Positions 16,709-46,666 of a stretch of DNA of 64,000 nucleotides are shown one piece after another; the first letter of the stretch is position 1, and each line of letters begins with the position of its first letter. The DNA lies in contig NZ_CP133592.1 in assembly GCF_031312595.1 (NCBI RefSeq), forward strand, positions 2,232,001-2,296,000. Direction: 5' to 3'. The translations under genes were made by a program, and so were the position numbers. The DNA comes from Methanolobus sediminis. GTDB lineage: Archaea; Halobacteriota; Methanosarcinia; Methanosarcinales; Methanosarcinaceae. The notes beneath the pieces are model-generated. The model had not been told where the DNA came from. It did not search any database and worked only from the letters and a program-made list of their open reading frames with translations.

Positions 16709-16747
16709 GTCAGTGTATGATTGTGATGTATGAAGTGTATGAGTAAT

Positions 16748-16776
16748 CATACGTTTGTGATATGATTAAACGTATG
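16748..16776. promoter_or_regulatory. 9-bp inverted repeat upstream of tspO
   Basis: CATACGTTT (16748-16756) and AAACGTATG (16768-16776) are a perfect inverted repeat with an 11-base spacer. Three copies of TGTATGA precede it at about 16714-16740. It lies between the YihY gene and tspO. It could be an operator of tspO or an RNA hairpin, with TCTTTTCTTCT following, that ends the upstream transcript. Confidence 0.4.
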
Positions 16777-16846
16777 TCTTTTCTTCTGCTTGATGCATAA
16801 TTATAAGTGTTCTTCAATATTACCTGTATGTTGGAGTGCTTCAAAA

Positions 16847-17332
16847 ATGAATGTTTCAAATGTAAATTGGAAGCAATTGATAATTTCAATAGTCATCTGC
16901 CAGATACCGGGCATATCAGGTGGATTTTTCACCGTAAGAGCAATTCCGACCTGGTATGCATATCTTCAAAAACCTGCCCTTATTCCTCCAAACTGGAGTT
17001 TTTCAATTGTTTGGACTCTTCTTTATCTGCTAATGGGAATTTCACTTTATATTGTCTGGCAAAAAGGAAGGTCTGTTCCGTATATAAAAACAGCAATGTC
17101 AATCTTCATTGTCCAATTATTCTTTAATTTCCTGTGGTCTTACCTGTTCTTTGGGCTGCGTTCACCGCAACTGGGGCTTGCAGGAATAATATTACTCTGG
17201 ATTTTGATCGTTGTGAATATTATTCAGTTCTACCGCATCTCAAAACCTGCGGGATTATTGCTTGTACCTTACATTCTCTGGGTATCCTTCGCAGCTTATC
17301 TCAACTATGGGATCATGGTTCTGAATCCCTGA
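16847..17332 (+). CDS. tspO: TspO/MBR family protein
   Basis: A tryptophan-rich membrane protein with five predicted helices (161 residues, the normal length). Family motifs are WYAYLQKPALIPPNWSFSIVWTLLY at about residues 36-60 (quoted in parts: PPNW, FSIVWTLLY) and NFLWSYLFFGLRSPQLG. TspO binds porphyrins and related ligands and is linked to stress and tetrapyrrole handling. I choose the ATG at 16847 because GGAG lies 10 bases upstream and the upstream extension (TTG at 16790) adds non-family residues. Confidence 0.88.
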   Translation: MNVSNVNWKQLIISIVICQIPGISGGFFTVRAIPTWYAYLQKPALIPPNWSFSIVWTLLYLLMGISLYIVWQKGRSVPYIKTAMSIFIVQLFFNFLWSYLFFGLRSPQLGLAGIILLWILIVVNIIQFYRISKPAGLLLVPYILWVSFAAYLNYGIMVLNP

Positions 17333-40723: not shown

Positions 40724-42307
40724 TTATTTCAACCTGTGGAGCTGTTCAACACCATTTTCCTGTTTGAGTATGAGTATCTCTCTTGCAACCAGTTCTTGTA
40801 TTTTCTTGTCAATATCTTCCTGGCTGAACTGGCGTGATACTAAACTTTTAATAATCTCTTTCTTAACTTTCGCCCCTCGCGGCATGTACATTAGGATATT
40901 TGTTTCAAGTTTGTCAGTTTTTGGTCCTTGTGTAGGGTTTACATTATTTTGTACAACAGGTGGCTTCATCTGAGGAGCAACACTTTGCATTTCCGGAATG
41001 GGTTCTGTTCCTTCATAAAACGGTGGCATCTTTCCAGTTGCAGGTGCCATTTCAGGTGGTTTCATTTTCGGCATCATGACGCCATCATTTTCAGATGGGA
41101 ATGGTACTACATCTGATGTTTGCAATTCCGGAATCGCAAATACTGTTTGTTCCTTCTGCTGTTCCGGTGGTTTAAATTCCGGCATCTGGAATTCTGTTTG
41201 TGGCATTTGCTGTTCCGGTGGTTTAAATTCCGGCATCTGGAATTCTGTTTGTGGCATTTGCTGTTCCGGTGGTTTAAATTCCGGCATCTGGAATTCAGTT
41301 TGTGGCATTTGCTGTTCCGGTGGTTTAAATTCCGGCATCTGGAATTCTGTTTGTGGCATTTGCTGTTCCGGTGGTTTGAATTCCGGCATCTGGAATTCTG
41401 TTTGTGGCATTTGCTGTTCCGGTGGTTTGAATTCCGGCATCTGGAATTCTGTTTGTGGCATTTGCTGTTCCGGTGGTTTAAATTCCGGCATCTGGAATTC
41501 TGTTTGTGGCATTTGCTGTTCCGGTGGTTTAAATTCCGGCATCTGGAAATCAAACTGTGCCGTCTCTCGCTCAGAATGCATGAATGGGGAGATTTCTGGT
41601 TCTTTTAAATCCTTTTTTTCCTCTTCGATCTCCTTATGGATCTTTTCTGCAACAAGTTCAGAGAGTTTATGTTCGTGCGGAGTCTCAATATTTACTGCAT
41701 TTTCCATTTCAATTGAAAAAGTGGGATTAGATATTTCCTCGTTATTTTCAACTAGCACTGTATTTTCATCCAGGGTGATTTGTTCTTCTGTGATGGCAAT
41801 TTCCTTTGGTATGAATTCCTGCGCAATGGTTTCAACCGGAGGCGCAGTTTCAACAACTTCCTGGATATTTGTGGGTACAGTTAGCTCTGGAATTTGTGCT
41901 TCACTAATGTAAGGGGTGCTAAAATTCTCAGTTGGCACTTGCTCAATAAATGCTGGATTTTCATTACTGTCAGTATTCTGTGTAATATTTTCCTGTGGTG
42001 CTGGTATTTGTTCGGGAGTTTTCTGTGCCATAGGGCTTAAAGACTCCTGCATCAAAGGCTCATTTTCATGTGCAGTATTTACTCCTGCCAGTTTGTTTTC
42101 CATTTCTTCAAGACGGTTGAATATGATATCCACATCTTTTTTGAGAATGCTGAAACCTTCGCTCCATGGGATTACTTCTTCAGAAGAGAAATTATCCACA
42201 GCCTCGAGTTCTCTTTCTATGAGCTTTCTGATGAACAGGCTTTTATTTTCAATTACGTCCAGTTTGTCAAAAAGCTCATCGGACATGCTGATAGTAAGTC
42301 TTTTCAT
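40724..42307 (-). CDS. Ribbon-helix-helix protein with eight 17-residue repeats and a C-terminal winged-helix-like domain
   Basis: A 527-residue protein. The N-terminus (residues 1-45) is a ribbon-helix-helix domain (MKRLTISMSDELFDKL). A long Gln/Glu/Pro-rich linker follows. In its middle are eight copies of FQMPEFKPPEQ joined by QMPQTE, 17 residues per unit (about residues 250-385). The C-terminal 65 residues (NILMYMPRGAKVKKEIIKSL...) form a compact helical domain resembling a winged helix. The DNA-binding N-domain and the tandem linker suggest a DNA-tethered scaffold or a regulator with a long spacer. The repeats at the DNA level are nearly identical, so copy number may vary between strains. 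Confidence 0.8.
   Translation of the reverse strand: MKRLTISMSDELFDKLDVIENKSLFIRKLIERELEAVDNFSSEEVIPWSEGFSILKKDVDIIFNRLEEMENKLAGVNTAHENEPLMQESLSPMAQKTPEQIPAPQENITQNTDSNENPAFIEQVPTENFSTPYISEAQIPELTVPTNIQEVVETAPPVETIAQEFIPKEIAITEEQITLDENTVLVENNEEISNPTFSIEMENAVNIETPHEHKLSELVAEKIHKEIEEEKKDLKEPEISPFMHSERETAQFDFQMPEFKPPEQQMPQTEFQMPEFKPPEQQMPQTEFQMPEFKPPEQQMPQTEFQMPEFKPPEQQMPQTEFQMPEFKPPEQQMPQTEFQMPEFKPPEQQMPQTEFQMPEFKPPEQQMPQTEFQMPEFKPPEQQKEQTVFAIPELQTSDVVPFPSENDGVMMPKMKPPEMAPATGKMPPFYEGTEPIPEMQSVAPQMKPPVVQNNVNPTQGPKTDKLETNILMYMPRGAKVKKEIIKSLVSRQFSQEDIDKKIQELVAREILILKQENGVEQLHRLK
41159..41552. repeat. Eight tandem copies of a 51-bp repeat
   Basis: The core GGCATCTGG occurs at 41181, 41232 and every 51 bp on to 41538. 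Copies are almost identical in DNA (a few A/G and T/C changes) and keep the reading frame (51 = 17 codons) of the ribbon-helix-helix protein gene. Such near-identity points to recent expansion or frequent homogenisation. Confidence 0.92.
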
Positions 42308-42349
42308 GGTACATTTCTCCTTGAAGGTCTGATTAGTGGAATCACATTA

Positions 42350-42370
42350 ATGTATGCATAATTCATACAT
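42350..42370. promoter_or_regulatory. Operator-like inverted repeat before the ribbon-helix-helix gene
   Basis: ATGTATG (42350-42356) and CATACAT (42364-42370) form a perfect 7-bp inverted repeat with a seven-base spacer. On the minus strand it lies between the TATA-like TTATATATG (about 42368-42376) and the start codon at 42307. A ribbon-helix-helix protein typically represses its own gene from such a site. Confidence 0.5.
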
Positions 42371-42528
42371 ATATAATTAACTAATTTATATTTTAAAAAA
42401 TATGATTGTTGCTTATTGTGTATGATTAATATGTGAAAATGATTGCAAAAGACGTTACACTAATGCATTATATGAGTCTTTGAAAAGTACAGGCTGTGTG
42501 AATACTAAAAAAGAATATGAATGTAATA

Positions 42529-43302
42529 TCACATGGATTTCTTACATTCCGGGCAAGCCTTGCCTTTAGTGGTCTGAATGAATGAATGCTTTGGAGCTAT
42601 GCATTTGCATAATGGGCATAATTCATTTGTCTTGAATATTTTTTCCACTGCCTGTAAGTCAGCGTCATAGATATGAGTGTCCCATCCTGTTGCGATAAGT
42701 GATTCAATCTCATAATCCAGTTCATTTTCTCTGAATACCTTTTTAAATCCTTCTACAATTGCAGGTATATTTGCAGGGAATCCTCCGAAAGCGTCCCATG
42801 ATCTGTAGAGCAGGTATATTCTTACTTGTGTATCATTCAATTGTTCCAGCTTGTAGGCGATCCAGCAGGGCTGATCTTCAAATTTAGGGATGTGCACTTC
42901 ATTTTCCCAGAGTACACCCACATGTCTTCTTGATCCGGGGCGCAGGTTCTTTACATTTGCATTTACACTGTCATATGCGGCCTGCCCGTACCTGAACAGC
43001 TGTTTTGCATAACAGTAATCGAATTTTCTTTTATCATCATCTTCAAGGGAATTATACCAGTCTGCATATTCTTCAGTAAGTTCTTCCTTGTATTTAGCTA
43101 TAAGATTCTCTCCAAAGGGTACGGCAGGGCTAACCTGATTGTTGTTCACGTCCTCAATATATATGGTGGCATGAACTCTCTTTGTCATAGTCTTATAGTC
43201 CGGCTTATGCTCCTCTCCCTTCTCGTAGATCTCGTGGATAAGTTGAGACCAGGCAGAAGCGATTGTTTTTCCTTTTATCAGTACAGCTTCCATATCGCTC
43301 AT
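42529..43302 (-). CDS. Thymidylate-synthase-like protein with C-terminal zinc ribbon
   Basis: A 257-residue protein. The central part (about 90-200) resembles the ThyA superfamily as found in methanogens: PCWIAYKLEQLNDTQVRIYL and LYRSWDAFGGFPANIPAIVEG recall PC...RSWD..GGFPAN of thymidylate synthase. The residue order suggests that the catalytic Cys is that of QPCW. The C-terminus adds a zinc ribbon (CPLCKC ... CPECKK) not seen in the classic enzyme. It could be the organism's dUMP methylase or a relative that acts on another nucleotide. Which is true cannot be told from sequence alone. Confidence 0.72.
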   Translation of the reverse strand: MSDMEAVLIKGKTIASAWSQLIHEIYEKGEEHKPDYKTMTKRVHATIYIEDVNNNQVSPAVPFGENLIAKYKEELTEEYADWYNSLEDDDKRKFDYCYAKQLFRYGQAAYDSVNANVKNLRPGSRRHVGVLWENEVHIPKFEDQPCWIAYKLEQLNDTQVRIYLLYRSWDAFGGFPANIPAIVEGFKKVFRENELDYEIESLIATGWDTHIYDADLQAVEKIFKTNELCPLCKCIAPKHSFIQTTKGKACPECKKSM

Positions 43303-44336: not shown

Positions 44337-45845
44337 ATGACTGTGCAGATGGAATGGGCAGAGAAGTACAGGCCAGTCTCACTGGGCGATGTAGTTGGCC
44401 ACAAGAAAGTGATAGATGATCTCAGGAACTGGGGTGATCAATGGGAATATGGCATTCCTGAAAAAAGGGCAGTAATACTGCACGGTCAGGCAGGTATAGG
44501 TAAAACATCATCTGCACATGCGCTTGCCAGAGATATGAACTGGGAGGTCATTGAGCTGAATGCCAGTGACCAGAGGACTGCAGGAGTTATTGAAAAAGTT
44601 GCAGGCTCCGCGTCCACAATGAAAACCCTTACTGGCACGTCTGATAAGAGGCTCATAATCCTTGATGAAGCTGATAATCTCCATGGTAATAGTGACCGTG
44701 GCGGTGCACGTGCCATAGTCGATGTTATCAAGAAAGCAAGTCAGCCTATTGTTTTGATAGCTAATGATATTTACGGACTTTCATCTACTGTACGTTCTTT
44801 ATGTATTGAGCTCAAATTTGGTTCGGTGCAGTCCCGCTCTATGGTCCCGGCACTAAAAAAGATCGCAGTACAGGAAGGTGTTATGTGCGGCGTGGGTGTT
44901 ATAGAGAAGATTGCAGAATCTGCTGATGGTGATTTCAGAAGTGCTGTAAATGATCTCCAGGCTATTGCAATGGGTCGTACTGAGATCAATATTGAGGATA
45001 TCTCCACCTCTGAACGCGATAATAAAGAATCTATATTCAAAGTGGTTGGGAGGATATTCAAAGGCAAGGATGTTTCATCTGCCCTGGAAGCGACCTACAA
45101 TCTTGATGAAACTCCCGAGGATCTCATTCACTGGGTCGATGAAAATCTTCCATACCAGTATACTGGCAAAGGTGAGGAAGCCTTGACTTCTGATATAGTC
45201 CATGCTTATTCTTATCTTTCCCGCTCAGACCGCTTCCTCGGACGTGTGCGCAGGCGCCAGAACTATCGCATGTGGCGTTATGCAGGCATGCTTATGACTG
45301 GCGGAACTGTAGTTTCCAAATCTCGTATGCGTGGGGGCTTTGTAAAATACCAGCCACCTTCTCTCTGGCGTAAGATGGGGCAGATGCGTTCCCGGCGAGA
45401 TATGAGGAACAACATTGCTGTAAAGATAGGCTCACATTGTAATGAATCAATGCGTTATTCCCGTCTTGAGGTAGCAGGTATGTATTCACGCCTTATTCAG
45501 GAAGATGAATATGCTGCTGATATAGTAGCTATTCTTGGTCTTGATATGGATGAGGTGCTTCACATGGCAGGGGCAAAGAAAGTGACCAAAAAACTTCAGG
45601 CGGTCTATGATGATGCGCAGAAACGGCGCCAGGCATTTGTTTCCGCGGAAGAACCTGTATTTTTTGTTGAAAAGGCTGCACCAAAGAAAGATCCTTCTCA
45701 ACTTAGTTTTGATAAACTGCCAGCTTCAAACAGTACTTCATTAGATTCCGCTTTTGGAAAGGATTCTGCTAAGAATAATGACGGGGCAGCACCTGCTAAA
45801 AAGGAAGTTGCAGCAAAACCACAAAAAACATTATTTGATTTCTGA
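44337..45845 (+). CDS. rfcL: Replication factor C large subunit
   Basis: Part of the clamp loader that opens PCNA. The 502-residue protein has a AAA+ module with Walker [10 protein letters not shown] (about residues 50-58), Walker [10 protein letters not shown] and sensor regions. A C-terminal helical domain with a basic, low-complexity tail follows. It ends in QKTLFDF, a PCNA-interacting peptide (PIP box). The ATG at 44337 is preferred over TTG 44325. The small subunit gene is not in the window. Confidence 0.95.
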
Positions 45846-46404
45846 TTTGTCAGGGTTGGGAATTCAGTGTTACTTTGTGCCGTCTTAAAAAATCAACATC
45901 ACTATAATTTGCAATGCAATATGCAGGATAAATAATCGATTATTTATTATATATTATGCATCATCTATTTTTATTCGTATACTATATTTTATGGATTTTA
46001 ATTTATGTATAGTGAATGCTATTTACTTTTGTGTAATGTTGCCAGATTCGATTTATTTGCTTCTTCTTGTTCTTCTTATGTCTTCTTGTTCCTGAGCTTT
46101 TGGATTTACTCTGGCTTTATAGAATTATCTATTTGCAACGTTTGTCTTTAAATAGGGGGATGTTATAAGTTGAATCTCATTATATTCTTTTATTTAGATT
46201 GTTGTATTATTTGGTATGAATTGCGCAACATAAATAGAAAAAAGTGCCTGTTATTTTTATATATCTTAGGTAGTATCGTGTGTGATTTTTCATACCCCTT
46301 ATAGTCATAATTATTCATCAATTGGTTTATAGTTAATTAATAAATGCAAAAACAGCTTTAGCTATCTGGTTCTTTATTTTTGTATTTAAAAAGCGGAGTG
46401 GAGT
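45846..46404. other. Long AT-rich non-coding stretch
   Basis: The left part of an 820-bp gap between rfcL and the RAM-domain gene. It has no convincing reading frame on either strand and several AT-rich boxes that could be promoters, for example TATTATATATTATGC near 45948. I see no further structure. Confidence 0.35.
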
Positions 46405-46457
46405 ATGAGCGGGTTGGGGAGTGGGGGTTATTGTCAAAAAGAGGATAACCCGCTCAT
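46405..46457. ncRNA. Candidate structured RNA with two competing hairpins
   Basis: ATGAGCGGGTT (46405-46415) and AACCCGCTCAT (46447-46457) form a perfect 11-bp stem around a 31-base loop. Within the same stretch GGGTTAT (46425-46431) can instead pair with ATAACCC (46445-46451). Both use the ACCC at 46448-46451, so only one can form at a time. The region has a far higher G content than the AT-rich surroundings. The 209 bp between it and the RAM-domain gene leave open whether it is a leader or a separate RNA. Strand unproven; no known family is recognised. Confidence 0.45.
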
Positions 46458-46666
46458 CAACCATTAGTATGATGTTCTTGGTATATATATTTTGTCCACA
46501 TACTCATCATTATTATGAGGTGTTTTTCGATAAACGGCTAACGATTGTGAGATACCTTTTCCATTTTTACTGCTTATTTGAGTCTCAAATGAATTATTGA
46601 AAACGTCTAAATACTTTGCATCCTACTTCTAGTCTTAGTTAGATAAATAACCATGAGGTAAAAAAG

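Follow-up and report, generated by a model that had tools for sequence, protein, structure and literature searches.

An RHH-like protein of Methanolobus with a tandem-repeat linker and a genome-unique palindrome as candidate operator of its own gene

The complementary strand of the analyzed window (i.e., the whole 64-kb stretch of Methanolobus sediminis DNA, to which all coordinates refer) encodes, at 40724-42307, a 527-aa protein whose gene is preceded by a palindrome. The tie between this genome-unique, fixed-geometry palindrome and this type of gene is the strongest computational fact of this work. Because of the uniqueness and geometry of the palindrome, and because the protein has a ribbon-helix-helix (RHH)-like head, negative autoregulation seems to be the best explanation, and we propose, with a probability of about 0.6, that the protein is a single-copy, lineage-specific, autorepressing RHH regulator in which a disordered, multivalent linker connects the head to a C-terminal interaction domain. 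The architecture and conservation of the protein, the geometry and uniqueness of the candidate operator and the conservation of a motif in the linker repeats were all determined computationally.

Architecture and distribution of the protein

The coding sequence, which is supported by orthologues with the same ends, starts with ATG. All its parts lie on the complementary strand: an RHH-like N-terminal domain (MKRLTISMSDELFDKL...FIRKLIEREL, residues 1-41; 42185-42307), a short, predicted helical/coiled-coil segment (residues ~42-75; 42083-42184; an AlphaFold2 helix at 42-79 and coiled-coil database matches), a poorly conserved, acidic first part of the linker (41549-42082; net charge of -29 over 177 residues), eight 51-bp tandem repeats (41124-41548), a second part of the linker with degenerate single motifs (FAIPELQ and MMPKMKPPE), recognized by orthologue and motif comparison (40925-41123), and a conserved, winged-helix-like C-terminal domain (LETNILMYMPRGAKVKKEIIKSL...LHRLK; 40727-40924), delimited by alignments. 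The C-terminal domain is basic (pI 9.6) and the linker strongly acidic. Pfam and NCBIfam scans with the full protein returned no family, and a search of the literature on CopG in Methanolobus found nothing relevant.

The three-part organization given in a preliminary description of the sequence is borne out by the orthologues (165-714 aa), in which both ends are conserved and the length varies mainly in the linker. All 26 other Methanolobus genomes tried carry an orthologue with the same two ends at one syntenic spot, and a search of 60 relatives revealed the gene in some other Methanosarcinaceae as well. A C-terminal domain profile matched 60 of 238 genomes of the class, with one locus each; 59 of them belong to the same family, the exception being a 165-aa homologue from another family. 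Apart from this deeper homologue, which came from the class-wide search, the phylum-wide profile search gave no relatives outside Methanosarcinaceae, and no C-terminal domain match was obtained in several of the family's genera, among them the ones whose genomes are largest.

The promoter palindrome

An inverted repeat between the TATA box and the start codon had been noticed before and taken for the operator of the gene. It is exact (ATGTATG-AATTATG-CATACAT; 42350-42370, complementary strand) and is the sole exact match in the 2.8-Mb genome (reversed-pattern control: 0). It begins 24 bp past the first position of the TATA-like AAAATATAA, and 53 bp separate its center from the ATG downstream. 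The alignment of 27 Methanolobus promoters (the window included), which delimited the TATA-box-like element AAAATATAAATTAG (42381-42394, complementary strand), revealed a near-invariant core composed of AAATATA, TATATATGTATG and CATACA, and in nearly all of these promoters the palindrome starts 22-24 bp from the start of the TATA box. In archaeal promoters, transcription is expected to start at about this distance, and the palindrome is therefore placed over the expected transcription start.

The perfect palindrome was found in 11 of the 17 Methanolobus genomes searched, always as a single copy before the orthologue (control: 0). Of 26 Methanolobus genomes, 22 have a match to a relaxed pattern at the orthologue's promoter; at other places in Methanolobus, this pattern gave four matches vs. 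four for the reversed control. The same palindrome also precedes the orthologue in two further genera, where the gene follows mtxH (loci L064, L127, L144, L145, and L147); all five proteins have the N-terminal strand MKRLTIS. Where this strand is altered (MKEL, MRQL), the palindrome is missing or changed. The main exception is a group of loci from one genus (L139-L142), with the MKRLTISM N-terminus and no palindrome in their own promoters. Additional GTATGA half-sites occur at the promoter in many species. Judged by its conservation, uniqueness and fixed distance to the TATA box, the palindrome thus behaves as the operator suggested earlier. A second palindrome in genomes G029 and G182 was rejected as a target because it lies within conserved coding sequence, which by eye we take to be GatE-like.

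The N- and C-terminal domains

The N-terminal RHH domain claimed in the preliminary description is better supported at the level of the family, with RHH_1 (PF01402) matching 7 of 16 members (best E 2.5e-4), and is weak for the 527-aa protein alone (12.3 bits vs. the cut-off of 20.5). AlphaFold2 modeled the domain as a monomer with helices only (residues 3-38) and without the ribbon strand; RHH folds need a dimer, and hence little weight was given to this result. Profile searches of the PDB gave no credible significant relative for either terminal domain, and matches to GCN4 and designed repeats were rejected as compositional.

The model of the C-terminal domain (mean pLDDT 73.7) consists of three helices (14-22, 31-38, and 44-74), and the wing is not formed. 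Foldseek searches with this model retrieved winged-helix proteins, including Zur, AldR, and the winged helix of Rpa2, none of them significantly (best E >1). The sequence profile matched Rpa2 (RPA32) non-significantly (E 0.16), and single family members matched MCM5_C (E 0.015) and the Hop2 winged helix (E 0.027). The winged helix proposed earlier for this end is plausible, although neither the sequence matches nor the fold matches reach significance. Conservation peaks in helices 1-2 and not in the usual recognition helix, whose putative counterpart is rich in acidic residues; the alignment further shows that one Lys is invariant and that a KK/KR pair is conserved. No metal-ligand pattern was found in the domain: the copy of the 527-aa protein has no Cys, and the outgroup domains contain single scattered Cys residues and no CxxC pairs. 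Some of the weakly similar proteins, such as Rpa2, have winged helices that bind proteins. Like the archaeal Rpa2 winged helix (RPA32; PDB 9f26 and 9f27) and the MCM5 C-terminal domain, the C-terminal domain of the protein is small and flexibly tethered, but the similarity in profile and fold is not significant, and the 527-aa protein lacks an OB fold or any other replication domain.

The repeat array and the linker

The eight nearly identical 51-bp repeats reported earlier were confirmed with Tandem Repeats Finder (51 bp x 8.3 copies, 96% matches, 41124-41548), which showed that they form by far the strongest tandem array of the window. Seven units are identical at the protein level (FQMPEFKPPEQQMPQTE, 17 residues), and the eighth has a changed tail (FQMPEFKPPEQQKEQTV). 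Within the first seven DNA copies there are three substitutions in all, every one synonymous. The proposed recent change in copy number is supported. A comparison of repeat number between species revealed arrays of the 51-bp unit in most Methanolobus species, with ~2 to 21 copies. As related species thus hold their own arrays, an assembly artefact was rejected. An antisense ORF (278 aa; 41076-41912, forward strand) crosses the repeats and encodes Cys-rich GNSVCGICCSGGLNSGIW units; it is probably a mirror of the repeat and not a gene.

The units share the recurring motif F-x-M-P-[ED]-[LF]-K-x-P-E with a nearly strict 17-residue period, most motif intervals being exactly 17 even in diverged arrays. 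Among 198 units, pN/pS was 0.37 for the motif core vs. 0.61 for the other seven positions, a comparison that is partly biased since the units were anchored on the motif; the unanchored core positions 1, 5, and 7 are likewise low (0.36, 0.25, and 0.22). The motif recurs at this period under purifying selection, and the repeats are more than a mere spacer. The earlier view of the linker as a length-variable spacer stands as far as the length is concerned, whereas the maintenance of motif and period in diverged arrays speaks against a spacer role only.

The linkers of other genera carry unrelated repeats or none. The orthologue at locus L130 (4764-6695) has an unrelated 54-bp x 16 array, which is an independent expansion, the one at L149 contains a 15-bp repeat unrelated to the 51-bp unit, and orthologues of ~200 aa (e.g., L066 and L137) are repeat-free. 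These observations favor the view that the repeats arise by neutral slippage, tolerated by a disordered linker, and have no function themselves. This view is difficult to reconcile with the lower pN/pS of the motif, the strict period in diverged arrays and the single SFPELKIPPE-like motif in the non-repetitive linkers of another genus (L132, L135, and L130), and we consider it possible, although the odds are against it. In our interpretation, the linker forms a disordered, multivalent region, and the gene is prone to recurrent repeat expansion.

Genomic neighborhood and similar sites

In Methanolobus, the gene order is mtxX - thyA-like - 527-aa-type gene - ilvD wherever the contig shows it, and rfcL and the topoisomerase VI genes lie further out. 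The thyA neighbor was found in one other genus as well (L139-L142); in the remaining genera its place is taken by mtxA and/or mtxH (MtrA/MtrH paralogues), and the orthologue follows mtxH. The gene of the deeper 165-aa homologue is likewise located behind mtxA-mtxH. The linkage to mtxA/mtxH is therefore old, being shared by several genera and a deeper lineage. The mtxX, mtxA, and mtxH genes of some methanogens belong to one transcription unit; MtxX was described as a protein of unknown function (PMC3087415). The Methanolobus gene in the mtxA/mtxH position (42529-43302, complementary strand) encodes a thymidylate-synthase-like protein, which scored 78 bits vs. the methanogen family cut-off of 174.6 and ends in a zinc-ribbon-like CPLC...CPEC tail.

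Sites of the GTATGA-N4-TCATAC type were also found before other genes at conserved places, one of them between fae-like and HxlR-like regulator genes (gene calls by eye). Since this site adjoins the HxlR-like gene, another factor may bind the site class, and it is mainly for this reason that our confidence in autoregulation does not exceed the value given above.

Further observations concern sites in the window and in related genomes. At 46254-46298 (forward strand), a degenerate inverted repeat, GTGTGATTTTTCATAC, comes after a TATA-like TTTTTATATATC and may represent another target of the regulator; close relatives have better inverted repeats (GTATGATTTATCATAC) at the same place, ~110 bp before a very conserved intergenic element, GGAGTATGAGCGGGTTGGGGAGTGGGGGTTATTGTCAAAAAGAGGATAACCCGCTCATC. 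This element (46400-46530, forward strand), situated between rfcL (ending at 45845) and an Lrp-like gene (46667), was detected by blastn at the corresponding position in most Methanolobus and, more weakly, in three other genera; it folds as a hairpin (z -2.0), has no Rfam match and is possibly a small RNA gene. At 16712-16785 (forward strand), GTATGA half-sites form a cluster, with GTATGAGTAATCATAC at its end, just before a TspO/MBR-like gene (~16847-17332, by eye), which in two relatives is preceded by a GTATGA-N4-TCATAC site. Finally, a palindrome of the same type precedes the gene for an 80-aa protein near a cupin-like gene (G000:C1:2035423, G006:C2:641634, and G019:C1:732857).

Proposed function and alternative explanations

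We infer that the 527-aa protein itself binds the operator, and the regulator would control mainly its own gene. The RHH N-terminal domain, as a dimer or a cooperative pair of dimers, would bind ATGTATG-N7-CATACAT and, in many species, the additional GTATGA half-sites; the palindrome, occupied at the start position of RNA polymerase, would block initiation. The acidic, Pro/Gln-rich disordered linker, with many short linear motifs spaced by 17 residues, might serve as a multivalent docking surface, and the small basic C-terminal domain could be an interaction module that recruits another protein or, with lower probability, a second DNA segment. The sites of similar type elsewhere, the helix-only AlphaFold2 monomer, the palindrome-free L139-L142 promoters, the bias in the comparison of motif core and remaining positions and the repeat-free short orthologues were counted against this explanation.

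In a broader role, the protein would control a small regulon or the mtx methyltransferase genes rather than itself, with autoregulation as only one element. Such a role would agree with the ancestral position behind mtxH (usually mtxA-mtxH) and with the palindromes or half-site clusters before the TspO/MBR-like gene and the conserved intergenic element. We regard it as rather unlikely, since no good palindrome was seen before mtxX, relaxed-pattern matches elsewhere are at the control level, and the gene was kept and even enlarged in Methanolobus, whose locus lacks mtxA/mtxH. The preliminary description suggested a two-ended DNA bridge, composed of the RHH and a DNA-binding winged helix, with the repeats setting the reach of the loop. 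The basic character of the C-terminal domain, its invariant Lys and KK/KR pair, the winged-helix matches, the linker length differing between species and the half-sites near promoters are compatible with such a bridge. Conservation centered on helices 1-2, an acidic-rich putative recognition helix and the lack of a significant fold match argue against it; beyond charge, little supports the DNA-binding C-terminal domain that bridging needs, and with one strong site per genome there is no direct support for looping, which makes this model doubtful. A chromosome-organizing or partition protein of the SegB/ParB type could likewise have an RHH-like DNA-binding end, a long disordered arm, a single copy and a constant locus, but no ParA/SegA-type neighbor was recognized in the gene orders examined, each genome has one exact site and no centromere-like cluster, and several related genera do without the gene; this function is very improbable.

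Comparison with known systems and significance

The dedicated autorepressor proposed here resembles the autoregulatory RHH repressors (CopG/Arc/NikR, Pfam RHH_1) in its predicted N-terminal strand and two helices, which by sequence come in the right order, and in the palindrome at its own promoter accompanied by half-sites. It differs from them in the long disordered repeat linker and its own conserved C-terminal domain, and no metal- or ligand-binding domain was recognized. A precedent for an RHH regulator with one chromosomal site is the haloarchaeal CdrL (cell division regulator long): ChIP-seq gave a single reproducible site, located in the promoter of the neighboring operon, and the same study found CdrL only in Halobacteria (PMC7439475). 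CdrL and the predicted RHH regulator described here both extend into a long C-terminal region, and the single site was measured for CdrL and is predicted from sequence here. CdrL, however, ends in a double zinc ribbon and is encoded beside cdrS-ftsZ2, whereas the C-terminal domain of the 527-aa protein has no Cys pairs and its gene neighbors mtxX/thyA-like (or mtxA/mtxH) and ilvD. Since C-terminal domain and neighbors differ, membership in the CdrL family fails, and CdrL is the nearest analogue and not a relative. SegB shares RHH-type DNA binding in an archaeon (predicted here), but no adjacent SegA-type/ParA-type ATPase gene was recognized in the loci examined, and the exact site occurs once.

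The architecture of this protein has no name, its gene occurs in each of the Methanolobus genomes tested, and, to our knowledge, few archaeal RHH regulators have been studied. It is conceivable, although we hold it to be unlikely, that the copy number of the short linear motif, tandemly repeated at a fixed 17-residue spacing, tunes a multivalent arm between a one-site DNA-binding head and a new C-terminal recruiting domain; if true, repeat expansion itself would adjust regulation or the formation of assemblies in this lineage. The genome-unique operator, together with a fast-changing repeat array, makes this gene a clean system for asking whether the number of repeats in a disordered linker tunes a regulator.
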